Virus record (IMG/VR): IMGVR_UViG_3300044712_000432 | Span: 1 to 46,038 of that record | Direction: 5' to 3' (one strand) | Length of the DNA stretch: 46,038 nt | Origin: a virus | Shown: positions 31,566 to 46,038 of the stretch, piece by piece | Layout of the letters: each line of letters begins with the position of its first letter | How positions within the stretch are numbered: position 1 is the stretch's first letter | Notes under the pieces: generated by a model | Told to the model about the DNA's origin: nothing | Databases searched by the model: none | Seen by the model: the letters and a program-made list of their open reading frames with translations, nothing else | Position numbers and translations under genes: made by a program

Positions 31566-31757
31566 TAGTAACATATTAGTAACAAATAGCCAATAAACCC
31601 GCGTGAATACTGCATCACCAATTCTCCAAACGTTAATTACAGTGTATTAATTACCCCTGCGAATCCAGTATTTGCGGGGGTTTTTGTTTGTCTATGAGGT
31701 AATTAATAACAGTTCAAAACAGGTTATTAGTAACAAACTAGTAACAAGCTAGTAACA
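31566..31757. other. attP: Phage attachment site (attP) region with arm-type repeats
   Basis: TAGTAACA occurs five times in direct orientation: 31566 and 31577 on one side, 31728, 31739 and 31750 on the other, each 11 bp from its neighbour. Between them an 11-bp inverted repeat (TATTAATTACC at 31645-31655, GGTAATTAATA at 31698-31708) flanks a terminator-like segment (CCCCTGCG..TTGCGGGGGTTTTT). This is the layout of a lambda-type attP: integrase arm sites flanking a core. It directly follows the integrase gene. The exact core cannot be set without the host sequence. Confidence 0.75.
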
Positions 31758-31763
31758 AGCACT

Positions 31764-32801
31764 TTAAATCATGTCTATTGCTTTTCTTAGTTCTTCGATG
31801 TCCTTATGGGTATATGTTTTTTCTGTGGTGGTAAAGCTGCTATGCCCTACAATATTTTTAATTGATGTGGGATTTGCTCCCGCGTTGTTAATTAATGTCG
31901 CAAAGGTATGGCGGCAGTCATGGGGCCTGTGCCCTGTGTCTAGTCTTAGTCGCTCCATGATCGGCGTAAACACTCCCCGGTAGTAATAGTCATAGCTTAT
32001 CGGTTTATCCTGTTTCTTGGGGTGTATTATAAGGTAGGAAGTGCAAGCCTGTACCCTACGCTCAAAAAATGGCTGGATTTTGTTATGGATGGGCACAAGT
32101 CTATTTTGGCCTGCCTCTGTCTTGCTGTCTGTGACTATAAAATACCTCTCTGATAGGTTTACATCCTCTGGTCTAATATTAATCAATTCTCCGGGCCGAA
32201 TACCGGTATAGATAAGCATTAGGATAGTATCTGCCAATGGGATGTCTGGTTCGTTTTTAAACAGCGTGTCTATTTCCTGCTGGCTGAAAGGTATTCGTTT
32301 GGTCTTGCCTTTGTTTTCGCCAAGGGTGATGTATTCAGAATAATCCTTGCTGACAATATCATTTGCCATAGCATATTTGTATAATTGATTATACAGCACT
32401 TTCATTTTCTTTAATGATCCGTGTCCTAAATCGCATGCTGCTATTGCTTTGTTAAGGTGGGCGGTCTTGATGTCCTTGAACAGCAGGTCATGTAAAGAAG
32501 TAGAATTATTGAACGCTGCATTATATCCCAGGACTGATGACCTAGACGCGTCCTTATATTTGACGGACTTGTATAATTGAAATAGTTCTGAAAATGTGAT
32601 CGTGTCATTATCCACCACAAGAGGATCTTTATTATATTCTGCAAGGGCAAGTAAGGCTTGATTTTGTTTTTCGTAATATCCAATAGGTAGATATATAGGA
32701 TAGCCCCTATCGTCAAACCCCAGTGTTTTTCTGGCTACCCAGGGTTTTCTTCTGTTGCCGGATAGTTTATAAACCGAGCCGTATCCATTAGGATTACGCA
32801 A
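31764..32801 (-). CDS. int: Tyrosine-recombinase integrase
   Basis: About 345 aa. Catalytic residues all present, numbered from the longest ORF start at 32828: R211 (YTGIRPGEL), K236 (DSKTEAGQNR), H303-xx-R306 (HDCRHTFAT), H329 (VGHSSFTTTEKTY) and Y339. Starts RNPNGYGSVYKLSGNRRKPW, an AP2-like arm-binding start typical of Firmicutes phage integrases. I chose TTG 32801 behind GGGGTGG; GTG 32810 or TTG 32828 are alternatives. It inserts and excises the phage at attP. Confidence 0.92.
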   Translation of the reverse strand: MRNPNGYGSVYKLSGNRRKPWVARKTLGFDDRGYPIYLPIGYYEKQNQALLALAEYNKDPLVVDNDTITFSELFQLYKSVKYKDASRSSVLGYNAAFNNSTSLHDLLFKDIKTAHLNKAIAACDLGHGSLKKMKVLYNQLYKYAMANDIVSKDYSEYITLGENKGKTKRIPFSQQEIDTLFKNEPDIPLADTILMLIYTGIRPGELINIRPEDVNLSERYFIVTDSKTEAGQNRLVPIHNKIQPFFERRVQACTSYLIIHPKKQDKPISYDYYYRGVFTPIMERLRLDTGHRPHDCRHTFATLINNAGANPTSIKNIVGHSSFTTTEKTYTHKDIEELRKAIDMI

Positions 32802-32849
32802 TTTTACCACCCCATAGACAAAATACAATAAATACTATATAATTAAATA

Positions 32850-33183: not shown

Positions 33184-33227
33184 AAATCGCGGGGGATACC
33201 GTTAATCTTCCGCGATTTCTTTTTTTA
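33184..33227 (+). terminator. Strong terminator, probably bidirectional
   Basis: AAATCGCGG pairs perfectly with CCGCGATTT (9 bp, 17-nt loop), followed by CTTTTTTT. The repressor stop codon lies in the loop on the other strand, where the stem is followed by only four T. Confidence 0.8.
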
Positions 33228-33588
33228 GTTCTTCAGTTATAACCAATAATTTTTTTATAGTTTCTACGGACACCTCTTTAGTATTTTGGCTTATTTTTGT
33301 TGGTTCAACAAGAGTAAGCCTATTTTTTTTGTCTTTTTCTATTTTGTTAAGTATGGCGTTATACTTCTCCGAATCTTCTTTTACTACATAAGCGTCGGGC
33401 AAAAAGAACTCCGGCAAAGTCAATCCAAAATAATTACATATCCTTTCTATTGTCTCTGTTCTTGGGCTTGTCTCGCCTTGCATTATTGTGGCTAATGTTG
33501 ATTGGGGAATATCGGACTTCCGAGCAAATTCATTTATGCTTAGTCCGTGCTTATCGCATAACTCTTTTATCCTCTCCGGTATGTTCAT
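33202..33588 (-). CDS. CI-like repressor (XRE family), 128 aa
   Basis: Residues 4-61 are an XRE helix-turn-helix (IKELCDKHGLSINEFARKSD, then IPQSTLATIMQGETSPRTETI). The C-terminal half is charged and helical, with no LexA/RecA-type self-cleavage peptidase. It reads opposite to the Cro-like gene across a region with three operator-like sites. Lacking a peptidase domain, it must be inactivated in another way, for example by an antirepressor. Confidence 0.82.
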   Translation of the reverse strand: MNIPERIKELCDKHGLSINEFARKSDIPQSTLATIMQGETSPRTETIERICNYFGLTLPEFFLPDAYVVKEDSEKYNAILNKIEKDKKNRLTLVEPTKISQNTKEVSVETIKKLLVITEELKKEIAED

Positions 33589-34777: not shown

Positions 34778-34843
34778 TGGCCCCGTAGGGCCAATGCGGG
34801 GTTGGTATGGTTCAATGATAACGCATGAAGGGGGGTGGTGTCG

Positions 34844-35287
34844 ATGCTTGAAGAGGCCCGATTGGAGGCAGGATTGTCCCTGGAAAGGGCCGCAGGGATG
34901 GCTTATTTGGACAGAAAAGCACTTAGGCGGCGAGAGACAGGAGAAATACAGGTAACGCCTGACGAGGTTTGCACGTTAGCAGAAGCCTATAAGAACCAGC
35001 AACTAAAGCACTGGTATTGCTCAGTATGCAAGATCGGCAAGGAAATGGGCCGCATATATGACCCCGTAGACGCAACACTGGCAATGCTCCGGTTCCTGCG
35101 GATAATTGAGGACATGCCGAAGATTAAACAGGTGCTAATGGACATCCTTGAAGACGGCAAGATCACGGAAGACGAACTGCCTTTATTTGAGGAAGTATGT
35201 AAGAAGCTGGCATACATGAAACAGTGTATAGATGCGCTTGTGATGGCAAAAGGAAAAAGCACTCCTGCCAGAGTGCCTTTAAGGTAA
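34844..35287 (+). CDS. XRE-type regulator with Cys pair, 147 aa
   Basis: ATG 34844 behind GGGGGGTGG. Residues 1-50 form an XRE-like HTH (EEARLEAGLSLERAAGMAYL then LRRRETGEIQVTPDE). A CxxC (CSVC, about 57-60) and a helical C-terminal part follow. Many Firmicutes prophages have this protein in the early operon; function beyond DNA binding is unknown. Confidence 0.7.
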   Translation: MLEEARLEAGLSLERAAGMAYLDRKALRRRETGEIQVTPDEVCTLAEAYKNQQLKHWYCSVCKIGKEMGRIYDPVDATLAMLRFLRIIEDMPKIKQVLMDILEDGKITEDELPLFEEVCKKLAYMKQCIDALVMAKGKSTPARVPLR

Positions 35288-35352: not shown

Positions 35353-35550
35353 ATGGATAAGCACGTTGTTGATATATTAACCGGCATGAGTTTTATGGCT
35401 ATCTGGCTATTGTTGATTCTTCCTTGCATGATTATCGCTTATAGAGATTTACGGAGAATATGGCGGGTTATAGCTAGGGCAGCAAGGATGGAGCTGCGGC
35501 GGTATGTACTGAGGGTTTGGATAGAGGAGAGAAAGAGGGGGATTGCATGA
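35353..35550 (+). CDS. Membrane protein with basic tail, 65 aa
   Basis: One hydrophobic span at about residues 8-29 (GMSFMAIWLLLILPCMIIAY), then an Arg-rich tail. It overlaps the next start by ATGA. Function unknown. Confidence 0.55.
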   Translation: MDKHVVDILTGMSFMAIWLLLILPCMIIAYRDLRRIWRVIARAARMELRRYVLRVWIEERKRGIA

Positions 35551-37052
35551 GTGAGGTTATTGTAAAAACTCAGCAGGATTGGGACGTTATACCGAAGGAT
35601 TTTGACGGCATTGTCTATATTAACGCAGACCGGGAAACGGTGATTATTGTTAAGGAAAAACGGGGCTGGAAAGTGGTAGCCAGGGGAAATAGTTCCGTGG
35701 AAGCCAGGGAAAATAGTTCCGTGGTAGCCAGGGAAAATAGTTCCGTGGTAGCCTGGGGAAATAGTTCCGTGGAAGCCAGGGAAAATAGTTCCGTGGTAGC
35801 CTGGGGAAATAGTTCCGTGGAAGCCAGGGAAAATAGTTCCGTGGTAGCCAGGGAAAATAGTTCCGTGGTAGCCTGGGGAAATAGTTCCGTGGAAGCCTGG
35901 GAAAATAGTTCCGTGGTAGCCAGGGAAAATAGTTCCGTGGTAGCCTGGGGAAATAGTTCCGTGGAAGCCTGGGGAAATAGTTCCGTGGAAGCCAGGGAAA
36001 ATAGTTCCGTGGTAGCCAGGGAAAATAGTTCCGTGGTAGCCAGGGAAAATAGTTCCGTGGTAGCCAGGGAAAATAGTTCCGTGGTAGCCAGGGAAAATAG
36101 TTCCGTGGTAGCCAGGGAAAATAGTTCCGTGGTAGCCAGGGGAAATAGTTCCGTGGAAGCCAGGGAAAATAGTTCCGTGGAAGCCAGGGGAAATAGTTCC
36201 GTGGTAGCCAGGGAAAATAGTTCCGTGGTAGCCAGGGAAAATAGTTCCGTGGTAGCCAGGGAAAATAGTTCCGTGGTAGCCAGGGAAAATAGTTCCGTGG
36301 TAGCCTGGGGAAATAGTTCCGTGGTAGCCTGGGGAAATAGTTCCGTGGTAGCCAGGGAAAATAGTTCCGTGGAAGCCAGGGAAAATAGTTCCGTGGTAGC
36401 CAGGGGAAATAGTTCCGTGGAAGCCTGGGGAAATAGTTCCGTGGAAGCCTGGGGAAATAGTTCCGTGGAAGCCAGGGAAAATAGTTCCGTGGAAGCCAGG
36501 GGAAATAGTTCCGTGGAAGCCAGGGAAAATAGTTCCGTGGAAGCCAGGGAAAATAGTTCCGTGGACGGCAAAGGCAATACACAAATAGCTAAATACTCAG
36601 ATTCTGCGAAACTTACCATATCCGGCAATGCGCGGATAGTTTCCCTCCCTGAAACTGTAGAAGAATATTGCGATTTTTACGGGATTGAGGTTAAAGATGG
36701 TCAAGCCGTATTATATAAAGCCGTCCATCATATCGAAAACATTTACCACAGCAACCATGACTACCACTTTACTTATGAGATAGGTGTAACCGTAGAACAT
36801 GAATGTGACTCTAATATAAATCGTGAATGCAGTCGAGGCTTGCATGTTTCTCACCGCGCTTGGGCTATTGATTTTGGGCGCGGATGGCGCGAATTAGCTA
36901 TTTTGGAATGCCTTGTGCCATTGGATTGTATTGTAGTACCGAAGAACGGGAGCGGCAAGGTGAGAACATCAAAATTAACCGTAGTACGGGAAATACCGCT
37001 TGAAGAGTGCGGGACATATGGGAAGGTATTAGGAAGGATGAGGGCATCATGA
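35547..37052 (+). CDS. Octapeptide-repeat (beta-solenoid-like) protein with DUF7666-like C-terminus, 501 aa
   Basis: ATG 35547 overlaps the previous stop (GGGGG upstream). Residues 1-47 are globular. From residue 48, the octapeptide NSSV[V/E]A[R/W][E/G] repeats 37 times (last copy degenerate), to about residue 343, predicting a stiff beta-solenoid. Residues about 345-501 resemble DUF7666 (GLHVSHRAWAIDFGRGW, then KVRTSKLTVVREIPLEECG). Such proteins occur in phages and prophages; role unknown. Copy number may vary, and long antisense ORFs here are artefacts of the 24-bp period. Confidence 0.85.
   Translation: MSEVIVKTQQDWDVIPKDFDGIVYINADRETVIIVKEKRGWKVVARGNSSVEARENSSVVARENSSVVAWGNSSVEARENSSVVAWGNSSVEARENSSVVARENSSVVAWGNSSVEAWENSSVVARENSSVVAWGNSSVEAWGNSSVEARENSSVVARENSSVVARENSSVVARENSSVVARENSSVVARENSSVVARGNSSVEARENSSVEARGNSSVVARENSSVVARENSSVVARENSSVVARENSSVVAWGNSSVVAWGNSSVVARENSSVEARENSSVVARGNSSVEAWGNSSVEAWGNSSVEARENSSVEARGNSSVEARENSSVEARENSSVDGKGNTQIAKYSDSAKLTISGNARIVSLPETVEEYCDFYGIEVKDGQAVLYKAVHHIENIYHSNHDYHFTYEIGVTVEHECDSNINRECSRGLHVSHRAWAIDFGRGWRELAILECLVPLDCIVVPKNGSGKVRTSKLTVVREIPLEECGTYGKVLGRMRAS
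35688..36563 (+). repeat. 24-bp tandem repeat array, about 36.5 copies
   Basis: Unit AATAGTTCCGTGG-W-AGCC-W-GGG-R-AA. Nearly all differences fall at three bases (14, 19, 23), each changing an amino acid: Val/Glu, Arg/Trp, Glu/Gly. The other 21 bases are the same in all complete copies. Such uniformity indicates recent expansion or ongoing homogenisation. Not CRISPR: there are no spacers. Confidence 0.95.
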
Positions 37053-37837: not shown

Positions 37838-38934
37838 TGAGTATGGATTTAAAGGTAGTTGAACAGGTTCAAAAGTTTGTTTGGAACTTTGAGGATATTA
37901 GAAAAGAATTAAAAGCACATATCGCGCAGTATTCAAAGTTAGTTGTAAACGACGACAATGTGCTTGAAATGGAAAACACCAAAAGAGAAATTGCCAGTTT
38001 GCGCGTTAAAATTTCCAAGTTTAAAGTTTTCGTAAGGCGGGAATTGGAAAAGCCATACCAGGAATTTGAATTACAGGTAAAAGACCTGCTTGCCCTTGTT
38101 GAATCGGTAGAAAAGCCGATTGAGGAACAGCTTTATAAATACGAAGTCAAGCGCAAAGAAGAAAAAGCTAAACTTGTTCAGCAATGGATTAATGAAATCT
38201 CGGCAGAGCTTGGCCTTGAAGAAAAATATAGTAGCCAGATTGCTATTGCCGACAAGTACCTTAATCGGACACAGAAATCCAAGGACACAAAAGACGATAT
38301 TCAAATGAAAGTCTGTTGGTTCCTGGATATTCAAAAGAAAGAACAGGAATCCGAAAGGTTCCGGCAGGAAAAAATCGAAATGGCGCGGTTCCTTGTTGAG
38401 TCACTAAGCGCAGGACTAACTACTCCGCTAACCTTTGCAGAAGTAGAGGGAAAGATTGAATCCCTTGATATTGTCGGTCTAAGGACGCATATCGAAACCG
38501 AAGTATCCAGACGTAGGGAACGAGAAGAAAAGGCCGCTAAACAAGCCTTGGAACGTGCAGAACAGGAAAGACTTGCACAAGAACAAGCCCGGATTAAAGC
38601 AGAACAAGAGGCAATAGAGAGGGCGGCAAGAGAAGAGGTAGAACGAGCGGCGGCAGAACAACGGGAACAGGAACGGATTGAACGCGAAGAGCAGGAACGT
38701 ATTGCCGAGGCTAACAGGATTGAGCAGGAACGAATTAAAGCGGAGCAGGAAGTCGCGCAAGAAATAACAGCGGTTGAAATACCGAAACCTGCACCGGTTC
38801 CCGCCAAGAAATACAATTCACAATTTGTAGTGTATGGCATAACAGAAAATGACCATCAAGCAATTTCAGACTTCTTGCACAATAAAGGATATGAATTTAA
38901 GTCAGCCACAAAAGAAGTTAAGAAAGCGGGGTGA
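37837..38934 (+). CDS. DUF1351 domain protein, 365 aa (recombination module)
   Basis: Residues about 1-230 fit DUF1351 (KREIASLRVKISKFKVFVRRE, LDIQKKEQESERFRQEK). Residues about 220-315 are a continuous Glu/Arg/Ala coiled coil, and a short folded C-terminal part follows (VVYGITENDHQAISDFL). DUF1351 genes lie next to single-strand annealing or Sak4-type genes in many phages; the role is not known. AGGAGG at 37821. Confidence 0.78.
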   Translation: MSMDLKVVEQVQKFVWNFEDIRKELKAHIAQYSKLVVNDDNVLEMENTKREIASLRVKISKFKVFVRRELEKPYQEFELQVKDLLALVESVEKPIEEQLYKYEVKRKEEKAKLVQQWINEISAELGLEEKYSSQIAIADKYLNRTQKSKDTKDDIQMKVCWFLDIQKKEQESERFRQEKIEMARFLVESLSAGLTTPLTFAEVEGKIESLDIVGLRTHIETEVSRRREREEKAAKQALERAEQERLAQEQARIKAEQEAIERAAREEVERAAAEQREQERIEREEQERIAEANRIEQERIKAEQEVAQEITAVEIPKPAPVPAKKYNSQFVVYGITENDHQAISDFLHNKGYEFKSATKEVKKAG

Positions 38935-38938
38935 TGGC

Positions 38939-39583
38939 ATGGCTATACCCGTACTAATCATTGGGAAAAGCGGAAGCGGAAAAAGTACCAGTTTAAGAAA
39001 TTGCGCCGAAGGGTTTAATCTAATAAAGGTTTTAGATAAACCCCTCCCTTTTAAAGGGAAAATACCTTCCGGAACGACTGATAATTACACAACTGTCATG
39101 AAATGGCTTGATGCTGCAAAAGAAAAATCTATCGTTATAGACGATGCGGGATATTTAATAACAAATCAGTTTATGAACAATCATTCCAACGCAGGGAAAG
39201 GGAACGGAGTATTTGCCTTATACAATGACATTGGAGATAAGTTTTGGAGTTTAATCCAATTCATAATTACCAAGTTACCTGCCAGTAAAATTGTTTATCT
39301 GATGATGCACGAAGATACTAACGATTTTGGCGACATCAAACCTAAAACAATAGGGAAGATGCTGGATGAAAAAGTATGTGTCGAGGGAATGTTCACAATC
39401 GTCCTGCGGTGTGTTAGCGAGAACAATAAACATAAGTTTATCACTCAATCGGAGGGTGGAGCAGTTAGTAAGTCTCCAATAGGACTTTTCGAGCGAGAGA
39501 TTGACAATGACCTCAAATTCGTTGACGATGCCATCCGTTCTTACTGGGAACTAACCGACAAAAAAGAAAGTAAAGGAGCGTAA
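38939..39583 (+). CDS. Sak4-like RecA-fold ATPase (AAA_24), probable recombinase
   Basis: A 214-aa protein. Walker A GKSGSGKS at residues 9-16; Walker B-like SIVIDDAG near residue 65. Single-domain size, and the DUF1351 and SSB-like neighbours, match Sak4-type phage proteins that assist strand annealing. ATG 38939 is used; the longer frame from 38849 overlaps the DUF1351 gene. Confidence 0.78.
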   Translation: MAIPVLIIGKSGSGKSTSLRNCAEGFNLIKVLDKPLPFKGKIPSGTTDNYTTVMKWLDAAKEKSIVIDDAGYLITNQFMNNHSNAGKGNGVFALYNDIGDKFWSLIQFIITKLPASKIVYLMMHEDTNDFGDIKPKTIGKMLDEKVCVEGMFTIVLRCVSENNKHKFITQSEGGAVSKSPIGLFEREIDNDLKFVDDAIRSYWELTDKKESKGA

Positions 39584-39588
39584 ACAAA

Positions 39589-40146
39589 ATGCAAAAACCT
39601 GCTGAATGGGACAACACAGAAGCCTTTACGGGGGATTTTAAAAACCTTCCTCCTGGCGGTTATATCTGCCGAATTAAAAACGCGAAAGTCGATACAACTC
39701 AATCCGGCAAAGAAGTTTTAGTTATTGCGTTTGATATTGCCGAAGGTGAATTTGCCAATTACTACGGTGAACAGTATGTCAAGAAAACAGAAAATAACCC
39801 TGACGCGAAATGGCAGGGCATATACCGGCAGTTAACAGAGGGTAACAGCCTTAAATTCTTTAAGGGTTTAATCCATGCCATTGAAAACAGCAATAACGGT
39901 TACAAGTGGAATTGGGCTGAGAAGACGTTGAAAGACAAGCTATTTGGTGGCGTGTTTGGGCAAGAAGAATACATCAACAATAACGGAGAATTGAAACTCT
40001 CCACCAAATGCCGCTTTATCCGCAGCATAGAACAGATCAGGAAAGGCGTGGATGCGCCGGAAATCAAGAAATTAAGCGGCACTAATGGAGGCAGTTCAAG
40101 CAATATAAATGATGTGTTCCCCGATGATGATATTCCTTGGGGCTAA
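39589..40146 (+). CDS. SSB-like ssDNA-binding protein (DUF669-like), 185 aa
   Basis: N-terminal beta-rich region (LPPGGYICRIKNAKVDTTQSGKE begins an OB-like pattern) and a disordered Ser/Asn linker ending DDDIPWG, close to the SSB tail DDDIPF that recruits host repair proteins. Position after the Sak4-like gene fits. Binding to ssDNA is inferred. Confidence 0.75.
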   Translation: MQKPAEWDNTEAFTGDFKNLPPGGYICRIKNAKVDTTQSGKEVLVIAFDIAEGEFANYYGEQYVKKTENNPDAKWQGIYRQLTEGNSLKFFKGLIHAIENSNNGYKWNWAEKTLKDKLFGGVFGQEEYINNNGELKLSTKCRFIRSIEQIRKGVDAPEIKKLSGTNGGSSSNINDVFPDDDIPWG

Positions 40147-41781: not shown

Positions 41782-43584
41782 GTGAACACTATTTCACCGT
41801 ATGATTTTGCTAGAAAATACTTCGGACACTATCGTCAAAAGGGAGACGAATTAGTCCCTATGTTCTGCCCTTTCTGTGATGGCGGGGAAAAGAAAGATAA
41901 ATTCACCTTTGCCCTTAATGCTAAAAACATGACATTTAACTGTAAACGTGGGACATGCGGTAAACAAGGGCATTTCACGCAACTATGCAAAGAGTTTGGA
42001 GAGCAGGCAGACCGTGATAATACATACGAAATTCATACACGACAACGGATATATAAAAAGCCGCAGACTAAAATAGCCACGCCACAGCAAAAGGTAGAAG
42101 CATATTTGAAGTTACGCGGTTTTAGTTTGGATACCTGGACGCGGCGCGGTGTTGGGGAGTCAGGCGGCAATATAGCAATACCCTACTACGAGAACGGTGA
42201 ATTGGTCATGGTCAAATTCCGCAAGCCTGAGAAATATAACGGCAAAGGACAGAAAGCTTGGCGGGAAGAGGGAGGCAAAGCTGTACTATGGGGTATGGAT
42301 TTATGCGACTGTGAAAACCCTCTTGTGGTCGTCGAGGGAGAAATGGATGCGCTTGCCTTAGACGAGGCCGGAGTAAAAAATGTGGTAAGCGTACCAAGTG
42401 GAGCCGAGGACTTAACATGGGTAGAATTATGCTGGGACTGGCTGGAACGGTTTAAGAAAATCATCATATGGGGCGATAACGACGAGCCGGGGAAAGCAAT
42501 GGTACGTAATCTCATTACACGGCTTGGAGACTGGCGGTGTTATGTAGTTGATAGCCAGTATAAAGACGCGAACGAGTGCCTTGTGAAAGAGGGGGCCACT
42601 AAAACCGCTGGATATGTATTAGGCGCAAAACCTGTGCCGGTTCACGGACTTATAGACCTTGCCAGTGTAACGCCATATGATGTGACGAAAGTCCAGCGTG
42701 TAGCGTCAATGATAAGAGGACTTGACGAAGAGACAGGCGGCTTTCTGATGGGTGAATTATCCATCTGGACAGGGAAAAGCGGACAGGGAAAGTCAACCAT
42801 ACTAGGACAGCAAATGATTGAAGCTATTGACGCTGGGGAGAGCGTATGCGCCTATAGTGGAGAGTTAAGAGCAGACCGTTTCCAATACTGGATTAACCTG
42901 CAAGCGGCTGGGAGAAAGCACATTGCAAAGTATTTCGACAAGGTGAAAGGTAAAGACGTTGCATATGTGCCAAGGGAGATAGCCGAACAGATAAAAGCGT
43001 GGTATCAAGGCCGCTTTTGGTTATATGACAATAACGTAAGCGGTAATAACGAGGAAACGGGAATTTTAAGGCTGTTTAGCTATGCGGCAAGGAAATACGG
43101 CTGTAAGGTTTTTTTGGTTGATAATCTTATGACGAGCCGCTTTGATTGCGGGAAGTCGGATAGCGATTATTATAGGGCACAATCAAATTTTGTCGGTGAA
43201 CTGATACATTTTGCCAAGGCTTATAATGTGCATGTTCATCTTGTAGCACATCCAAGAAAGACACAGGGGAAGATCGAGAAAGAAAACGTATCTGGAAGCG
43301 GAGATATAACGAATCGCGCCGACAATGTATTTTCTATAGACCGCATGACAGACGAAGAGAAGACGAAAGCCGGATTCGACACTAAACTAACTATATTAAA
43401 AAACCGTTCCGAAGGTGTCCAAAATGTAGAAATAGGGCTAATGTTTGACCAAGAATCGAAACGGTTTTACCAGCGTTCAGATACGGTGGGAGCGTATAAA
43501 ATGTATGGATGGGAAACGTTTCCGTCCCCATGGGATGAGGAAGGAGAGCAGAATGAAAGCATACCGCTTACTGGAGTTGGTTAG
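41782..43584 (+). CDS. Bifunctional primase-helicase (T7 gp4-like), 600 aa
   Basis: Zinc finger with C29, C32, C54, C59 (FCPFC, CKRGTC); TOPRIM primase core with VVEGEMDALAL (E184 area) and IIWGDNDEPG (about 230-237); RecA-like DnaB helicase with Walker A TGKSGQGKS (330-338), KVFLVDNLM and VAHPRK. It unwinds DNA and makes primers. GTG start at 41782 after GGGG. One polypeptide replaces separate DnaG and DnaB. Confidence 0.92.
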   Translation: MNTISPYDFARKYFGHYRQKGDELVPMFCPFCDGGEKKDKFTFALNAKNMTFNCKRGTCGKQGHFTQLCKEFGEQADRDNTYEIHTRQRIYKKPQTKIATPQQKVEAYLKLRGFSLDTWTRRGVGESGGNIAIPYYENGELVMVKFRKPEKYNGKGQKAWREEGGKAVLWGMDLCDCENPLVVVEGEMDALALDEAGVKNVVSVPSGAEDLTWVELCWDWLERFKKIIIWGDNDEPGKAMVRNLITRLGDWRCYVVDSQYKDANECLVKEGATKTAGYVLGAKPVPVHGLIDLASVTPYDVTKVQRVASMIRGLDEETGGFLMGELSIWTGKSGQGKSTILGQQMIEAIDAGESVCAYSGELRADRFQYWINLQAAGRKHIAKYFDKVKGKDVAYVPREIAEQIKAWYQGRFWLYDNNVSGNNEETGILRLFSYAARKYGCKVFLVDNLMTSRFDCGKSDSDYYRAQSNFVGELIHFAKAYNVHVHLVAHPRKTQGKIEKENVSGSGDITNRADNVFSIDRMTDEEKTKAGFDTKLTILKNRSEGVQNVEIGLMFDQESKRFYQRSDTVGAYKMYGWETFPSPWDEEGEQNESIPLTGVG

Positions 43585-45635: not shown

Positions 45636-45818
45636 ATGCCGGATATAGCTGTTATAGCGAAAAGATATTTCAATGTTGGTGATAGTTACTGCCAATTAAA
45701 ACAAAACAAAGTAAATCCTTTTTACACTTGTAGAACTTGTGATTGCAACAAAGGTGTAATGTTGAGCGATGATTATAATGTGATTGTATTATGTACGTAT
45801 ATTCCTGAGATTAAGTAA
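45636..45818 (+). CDS. Small Cys protein, 60 aa
   Basis: ATG 45636 after GGGGGTGCG. CxxCxC near residue 32 suggests a metal site. The last eight codons are repeated at the window start. Confidence 0.6.
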   Translation: MPDIAVIAKRYFNVGDSYCQLKQNKVNPFYTCRTCDCNKGVMLSDDYNVIVLCTYIPEIK

Positions 45819-45836
45819 TAGCAAGGAGGCGTAAAT

Positions 45837-46001
45837 ATGCAATGTATGGGCGGTTGCGGTAAGGAAGGGCACATAATCAAGCTAACTCCACAGGTGGAAG
45901 TGTGCCTCTGCCTGGATTGCTTGGAGATAGCGCGGCGGTGGGTGCCGAGGCAGGTTATATGGCTAAAGCAGGTAGGAGCGCGGATTGATATAACGGCGTA
46001 G
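45837..46001 (+). CDS. 54-aa Cys-rich microprotein (second copy of 43-207)
   Basis: Identical protein; here the ribosome binding site reads AGGAGGCG, a better match than in the left copy. In a circular map the two are one gene. Confidence 0.75.
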   Translation: MQCMGGCGKEGHIIKLTPQVEVCLCLDCLEIARRWVPRQVIWLKQVGARIDITA

Positions 46002-46013
46002 GGGGTGCGGTGG

Positions 46014-46038
46014 ATGGGTATCGGATTACCGAAGGCTC
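46014..46038 (+). CDS. Start of the 56-aa CxxC protein gene (partial)
   Basis: First eight codons of the gene at 220-390, cut by the window end. Confidence 0.65.

Follow-up and report, generated by a model that had tools for sequence, protein, structure and literature searches.

The viral record IMGVR_UViG_3300044712_000432 of IMG/VR was analysed over its full 46,038 nucleotides (the window). It contains a gene for a repeat protein that can be subdivided into three parts: an N-terminal cap, an octapeptide array predicted to fold as a beta-solenoid, and a C-terminal domain resembling RIIB and DUF7666 (Table 1). The cap is common to the relatives of this protein and lets them be found without the repeat as query.

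The array consists of 36 complete 24-bp units and a divergent last one (copy number 37.2 by Tandem Repeats Finder, TRF). The original prediction, made from the sequence alone, had counted 37 octapeptides, of which the first 36 stand as complete copies. It had also described the pattern of variation correctly: 21 bases are invariant across all 36 complete units, and the remaining three occur in two states each and change the amino acid (base 14: T/A, Val/Glu; base 19: A/T, Arg/Trp; base 23: A/G, Glu/Gly). Of the eight combinations that these states allow, seven are present. The mean pairwise identity between units is 94% at the DNA level and 83% at the protein level over 288 aa; the criterion for high internal conservation of repeats is more than 85% identity between repeats over 100 aa. 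Ten units bear Trp, nine of them together with Gly and one with Glu. The pairing of Trp with Gly noticed at first holds in the window array but is not general, as 671 canonical units include 152 with Trp-Glu and 182 with Trp-Gly.

Exact repeats within the window array reach at most 128 bp, and none of its 141-mers is repeated, so the array can be resolved with reads of about 150 bases. Open frames on the minus strand across the array were rejected as genes: they are expected of a stop-free 24-bp tandem repeat, and the C-terminal homology gives them no support.

Table 1. Features of the repeat gene and of the surrounding genome (window positions)
Feature	Position	Strand	Details or basis
Gene for repeat protein	35547..37052	+	ATG 35547 to stop 37052; 501 aa
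N-terminal cap, residues 1-47	35547..35687	+	motif [KT]TQ.[ED][LFW]D.IP..F....YI
36 complete 24-bp units	35688..36551	+	AATAGTTCCGTGG[T/A]AGCC[A/T]GGG[A/G]A = NSSV[V/E]A[R/W][E/G]
Divergent last (37th) unit	36552..36575	+	NSSVDGKG; leads into C-terminal domain
C-terminal domain (RIIB C-terminus / DUF7666 / DUF5758 kin)	36576..37049	+	PHROG, Pfam and BFVD matches
Terminal direct repeat, 244 bp, 2 mismatches	1-244 and 45795-46038		direct repeat comparison
Three copies of 11-bp direct repeat TAGTAACAAGC	31728-31760		just downstream of integrase gene
Tyrosine integrase	31764-32828	-	motif reading of sequence
Repressor-like helix-turn-helix (HTH) protein	33202-33588	-	motif reading of sequence
Transcriptional regulator (HTH, phrog_6499), early operon, upstream of repeat gene	34835..35287	+	profile matches
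65-aa open reading frame (ORF) with hydrophobic segment; stop overlaps repeat gene start codon	35353..35550	+	sequence
DUF1351 / phrog_674 early gene	37843..38934	+	profile matches
Sak4-like single-stranded DNA (ssDNA)-annealing recombinase	38849..39583	+	PHROG E 5.9e-73
SSB-like protein	39589..40146	+	profile match
DNA primase/helicase, replication module	41782..43584	+	profile match

Two-state units across phages

The same array type occurs in many other phages. A search of IMG/VR with the window protein yielded 79 loci (loci are denoted by L numbers below), and a search of species genomes gave another 18, mostly in Clostridia and related metagenome-assembled genomes (MAGs). The cleaned set comprises 75 non-redundant arrays with 837 units, from phages and prophages with a guanine-cytosine (GC) content of 26-69%. 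A plasmid search returned merely three weak matches. In nearly all loci the silent bases are phage-specific and uniform across the units of one phage (Ser as TCC, AGT, AGC or TCA; Ala as GCN; Arg as CGG or AGG), yet the switching bases are the identical three. Among the first 66 arrays, bases 14 and 19 were variable in all 66 and base 23 in 65; in the cleaned set, bases 14, 19 and 23 are polymorphic in 74, 75 and 73 of the 75 arrays, respectively. The fixation index (Fst, within-array versus total diversity in the 75 arrays) amounts to 0.86-0.99 at the wobble bases and to 0.12, 0.27 and 0.17 at bases 14, 19 and 23. The suggestion that the units are homogenised and vary only where the amino acid changes therefore extends to the related phages. 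Random silent and nonsilent changes across the unit were looked for in them and did not occur; the same three switches were found instead.

Since peptides of the repeat itself, e.g. NSSVEARE, had served as queries at first, searches free of the repeat were also run, with the C-terminal domain alone and with the N-terminal cap alone. In the loci recovered by either one, the switch behaviour is unchanged, and additional scaffolds came to light too. The further octapeptide scaffolds are NSRV[V/E]A[R/W][E/G], SSHV[V/E]A[R/W][E/G], NSSV[V/E]A[Y/H][E/G] and an NSTV scaffold with linked Thr-Tyr/Arg-Cys states. Scaffolds of nine residues also exist, namely SSQV[NV/KE]M[R/W][E/G] and GSAQI[SY/RD]V[Y/S]. 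Strict two-state arrays are the commonest form, though not the sole one, and more diverse relatives are found in L003, L022, L041, L158 and L166. Among isolated phages with finished genomes, related arrays with Val/Glu switches are carried by Gordonia phage Spooky and the mycobacteriophages ThetaBob and Squirty.

The nine-residue solenoid units (GSAQI..V. and SSQV..M..) are few-state as well and were seen in L129:2581-2850, L130:2611-2934, L165 and L166. Those of L130 include Arg/Trp and Glu/Gly switches.

The codons reveal how the two states are related. GTA and GTG are the only Val codons one base away from Glu, and one of them is the main codon of the switching Val5 in 71 of 73 arrays. The scaffold Val4 mainly uses GTC or GTT instead (54 of 75 arrays; Fisher P 2e-20 for the difference). 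Likewise, in 72 of 74 arrays the Arg7 codon (CGG or AGG) is a single base away from Trp. Since the codons at the switch sites lie one mutation apart, the two states share one unit background and do not stem from two old repeat lineages. Per array, the state frequencies are near binomial with p around 0.5 (chi2/df 1.4, 1.4 and 2.0 at the three sites). Within units there is a slight excess of Glu5-Trp7 and of Arg7-Glu8. The order of the units is near random, without identical neighbours. A structural periodicity of the states, such as alternate faces, was considered and rejected: the lag signals noted (Arg/Trp at lag 2, z -2.6; lag 6, z 2.9) arose among dozens of tests, and no lag correlation survives the correction for multiple testing.

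Turnover is faster in the array than around it, because different arrays accompany array-side flanks that are 100% identical over 1 kb (L005/L106, L026/L123, L034/L056 and L004/L007). In L005/L106 and L026/L123 the difference is already present in the repeat adjoining the unique flank. L034 and L056, from one sample, have five units in common and then diverge. L004 and L007 differ by exactly four units, which could be an assembly collapse; the other three pairs are not easily explained in this way. In L002/L028 the 5' flank is 99% shared and the arrays are quite different. The predicted expandability of the array is thus borne out by variants in copy number and order.

Assembly has to be taken into account here. 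In a set of 77 contigs, 32 end inside the array, and the complete arrays contain no exact repeat longer than 123 bp (the window array reaches 128 bp). From these contig ends and this ceiling it follows that short-read assembly retains shuffled arrays, while uniform ones are broken up. The earlier impression of shuffled copies is therefore right in that order variants exist, but it is also favoured by the selective survival of arrays without long exact repeats. The confinement of the variation to three codons cannot be explained by this bias.

Assemblies of viral metagenomes break systematically at this array. Five IMG/VR contigs have both ends inside the array and are therefore probably circular phage maps that were opened where the repeat was not resolved: 3300049926_000051 (L032/L035), 3300028146_000009 (L029/L039), 3300048930_000268 (L057/L060), 3300011877_000002 (L014/L069) and 3300006198_000027 (L015/L072).

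Predicted fold, C-terminal domain and gene neighbourhood

The solenoid proposed originally is supported by structure prediction. AlphaFold models of the window protein and of L005, a relative with a short array, show a beta-solenoid with mean predicted local distance difference test (pLDDT) scores of 87.5 and 86.2, respectively. Each unit forms one four-residue strand at unit residues 3-6, with turns at residues 7, 8, 1 and 2. From the strand alternation, the side chains of Val4 and Ala6 would point inward and that of position 5 outward, while positions 7 and 8 would lie at the turn. In VIA-align, the solenoid part resembles parallel beta-helices in general (3p4g: Z 11.2, root-mean-square deviation (rmsd) 4.5, 161 residues), which is evidence of the modelled fold class only. 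The matches listed cover mainly the solenoid (residues 1-166) and are uninformative on the C-terminal domain. The predicted template modelling score (pTM) is 0.61, so the domain arrangement is uncertain. Sequence searches of the PDB with the whole protein and with a C-terminal profile gave chance matches only.

The C-terminal domain is homologous to the C-terminus of RIIB. Two RIIB PHROG profiles match it (E 9.6e-9 and 3.8e-8), and RIIB models in BFVD align over about 120 residues with an rmsd near 2 A (E around 1e-6, prob 1.00). The window protein also matches PHROG 15773 (E 1e-35). The score of DUF7666 (PF24703) is 22.1 bits for the whole protein and 24.8 bits for the C-terminal part, against a gathering score of 27 bits. 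DUF7666 matches 18 of 23 relatives at E<=1 (best 1.7e-7), and DUF5758 matches 9 of 23 at E up to 1. The domain had been called conserved from the start, and its ratio of nonsynonymous to synonymous substitution rates (dN/dS) of 0.17-0.20 in three moderately diverged pairs indeed indicates purifying selection. Seven window ORFs, a subset of all ORFs (five of them above 500 aa), were scanned for a RIIA partner and gave no match; they belong to tail, endolysin-like, tail-spike, primase/helicase, adaptor, SSB-like and unknown families.

The best PDB fold match of the C-terminal part is the ADP-ribosyltransferase Arr (2hw2), which is weak (prob 0.63 and 0.47). The match to PARP10 is weaker still, and all ADP-ribosyltransferase matches have E>0.4. 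This weak but repeated likeness of the RIIB/DUF7666-type domain (36603-37049) to the Arr/PARP fold could bear on the activity of RIIB.

In other phages (e.g. L022, L027 and L053) the domain behind the array is replaced, and the architecture is therefore modular. One alternative C-terminal domain (..ITGAC.FG.K.F....) stands behind like arrays in L022, L046, L053, L057, L136, L161 and L163. Another one (NWC.TTHCRAG) was seen in L027, L071, L076 and L080.

The early-operon position of the gene was confirmed: it follows HTH regulators and precedes recombination and replication genes. In relatives, the array neighbours are mostly recombination and replication genes as well (exonuclease VIII, RecT, Sak4, DnaD-like loaders), with methyltransferases or an anti-restriction protein; the L022 locus is also near a head protease, and phrog_674 recurs near the array in L088. 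The position of the gene and the domains it encodes together suggest an intracellular role of the repeat protein.

A possible recognition solenoid and its alternatives

With a probability of roughly one half, the protein is an intracellular recognition solenoid that evolves in concert and is selected for diversity; the setting is probably a conflict between phage and host or between phages. It would be produced early and combine a short cap, a solenoid of near-identical octapeptides and a RIIB/DUF7666-type C-terminal domain. Each unit would contribute one Ser-Val-x-Ala strand that turns Val4 and Ala6 to the core and leaves positions 5, 7 and 8 on the outer side and turn, and the 36-unit rod would thereby display 36 x 3 two-state sites on its surface. 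Recombination or slippage would gain, lose and reorder units, keeping the scaffold and the silent bases uniform within a phage; the neighbouring Sak4-like annealing recombinase is a plausible driver. Almost every lineage would then retain the two alternatives at each of the three positions because a varied outer surface is selected for. Fast unit turnover of this kind, combined with such selection, is expected to produce concerted evolution of the silent sites together with a polymorphism shared at the three outer sites. The solenoid would most likely recognise a variable protein partner that belongs to a competing phage or to the defences of a host or prophage, and it may be this partner or its pathway on which the C-terminal domain acts. 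The rII modules of several phages are known to counter RexAB superinfection immunity (PMC11879866), which would make a role in conflict plausible where a RIIB-type domain is present.

A comparable arrangement has been described in fungal NLR proteins. The WD repeats of HET-D/HET-R (and likewise ANK and TPR repeats) are near-identical, change in copy number and evolve in concert, and their diversity is confined to four positions per repeat on the interaction surface (Dyrka et al. 2014, PMC4986451). The phage array shares the near-identical units, the copy-number change, the concerted evolution and the small number of variable codons. However, it is a predicted eight-residue beta-solenoid with two states per site and has no homology to these repeats. 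No Pfam domain of an NB-ARC/NACHT STAND core was found in the window protein. Transcription activator-like (TAL) effectors read DNA with helical units of 33-35 residues, in which a uniform scaffold carries two adjacent variable residues and the order of the units is informative. A uniform scaffold is common to both systems, whereas the phage units have eight residues and are predicted to form beta strands.

Recognition systems under conflict in fungi, and the DNA-reading effectors of plant-associated bacteria, are marked by uniform repeats of which a few surface positions vary. The recurrence of a minimal two-state version in dozens of diverse phages suggests that a recognition system between phage and host, or between phages, has gone unnoticed; its sequence code would be easily read. 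The protein also offers a route to testing the function of RIIB-type domains. RIIB of T4-like and N4-like phages has the homologous C-terminal domain, and the octapeptide solenoid lies outside the matched RIIB region. The PHROG 15773 and DUF7666/DUF5758 entries contain no description of the three-switch array. The pattern was not found in the literature searched either, where subscription literature is thinly covered and absence is therefore weak evidence. For DUF7666 and the repeat peptides no publication turned up, and for phage octapeptide solenoids there was one irrelevant match only.

Several observations weigh against a recognition solenoid. The unit order has no significant structure beyond chance and fits selection on composition as well as on order; in addition, the randomness is partly an assembly bias, as the resolved arrays are biased to shuffled ones. 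Two states per site are narrow for a recognition code. Finally, the kinship with RIIB does not give a function, because the C-terminal domain is also carried by other proteins (giant viruses and ankyrin proteins in BFVD).

The main rival is selection on composition and solubility, which is less likely than the recognition solenoid. Here, a mix of charged and hydrophobic outer residues would keep the long solenoid soluble and prevent sticking or mis-registered folding, with the order being neutral. State fractions near one half with a near-binomial spread, the near-random order and the slight within-unit excesses all agree with this, and Val/Trp versus Glu/Arg are indeed hydrophobic and charged alternatives. 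However, Glu/Gly at position 8 is not such a pair. Many residues could balance a surface, yet identical pairs recur, and the under-dispersion predicted by a strict balance is not seen.

Returning to the recognition solenoid, a bolder form of it is rather doubtful: the string of three-switch units, reshuffled by recombination, would be a code that a partner reads as self/non-self or as a target tag, in the phages of many hosts.

An intertwined trimeric beta-helix, serving as a needle or spacer in the virion like T4 gp5 or VgrG, is improbable. The eight-residue period is that of gp5, and the AlphaFold monomer model would be compatible with such a trimer too. The Pfam models DUF2345 (E 1e-6; 28.9 of 30.7 bits) and Gp5_trimer_C (E 0.03; 14.9 of 30.9 bits) nevertheless stay below their cut-offs, and low-complexity repeats inflate these scores. 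Moreover, gp5 and VgrG are virion spikes, whereas in the window and in most relatives examined the gene lies in the early recombination and replication region and not in the tail module.

It is very improbable that a phage or host mechanism mutates the three bases specifically, as in diversity-generating retroelements. The variation is almost entirely at three exact bases in every canonical array, but no reverse transcriptase (RVT_1) was detected in the record, while control genomes were positive. The changes are also of mixed type (T/A, A/T or C/T, A/G) and strictly two-state, and near-identical phages differ by gain or loss of whole units as well.

Neutral concerted evolution, with the three sites as segregating variants caught before fixation, can hardly be maintained: homogenisation is a real property of tandem arrays, and uncommon private variants do spread locally (in L122/L123, Met at position 5), but the fixed silent sites next to the same alternatives in 73-75 of 75 arrays already contradict it. 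Equally little credence is given to an assembly or consensus error in a repeat that short reads cannot resolve, in spite of the contigs ending in the array and the exact-repeat ceiling, since the finished isolate genomes show related switching arrays and an artefact cannot limit variants to three codons across this range of GC content.

Genome context

Judging by the terminal direct repeat, the record probably covers the whole genome, about 45.8 kb in size. The phage is probably temperate, given its integrase and repressor-like HTH protein. The 11-bp direct repeats next to the integrase gene are possibly part of an attachment site.
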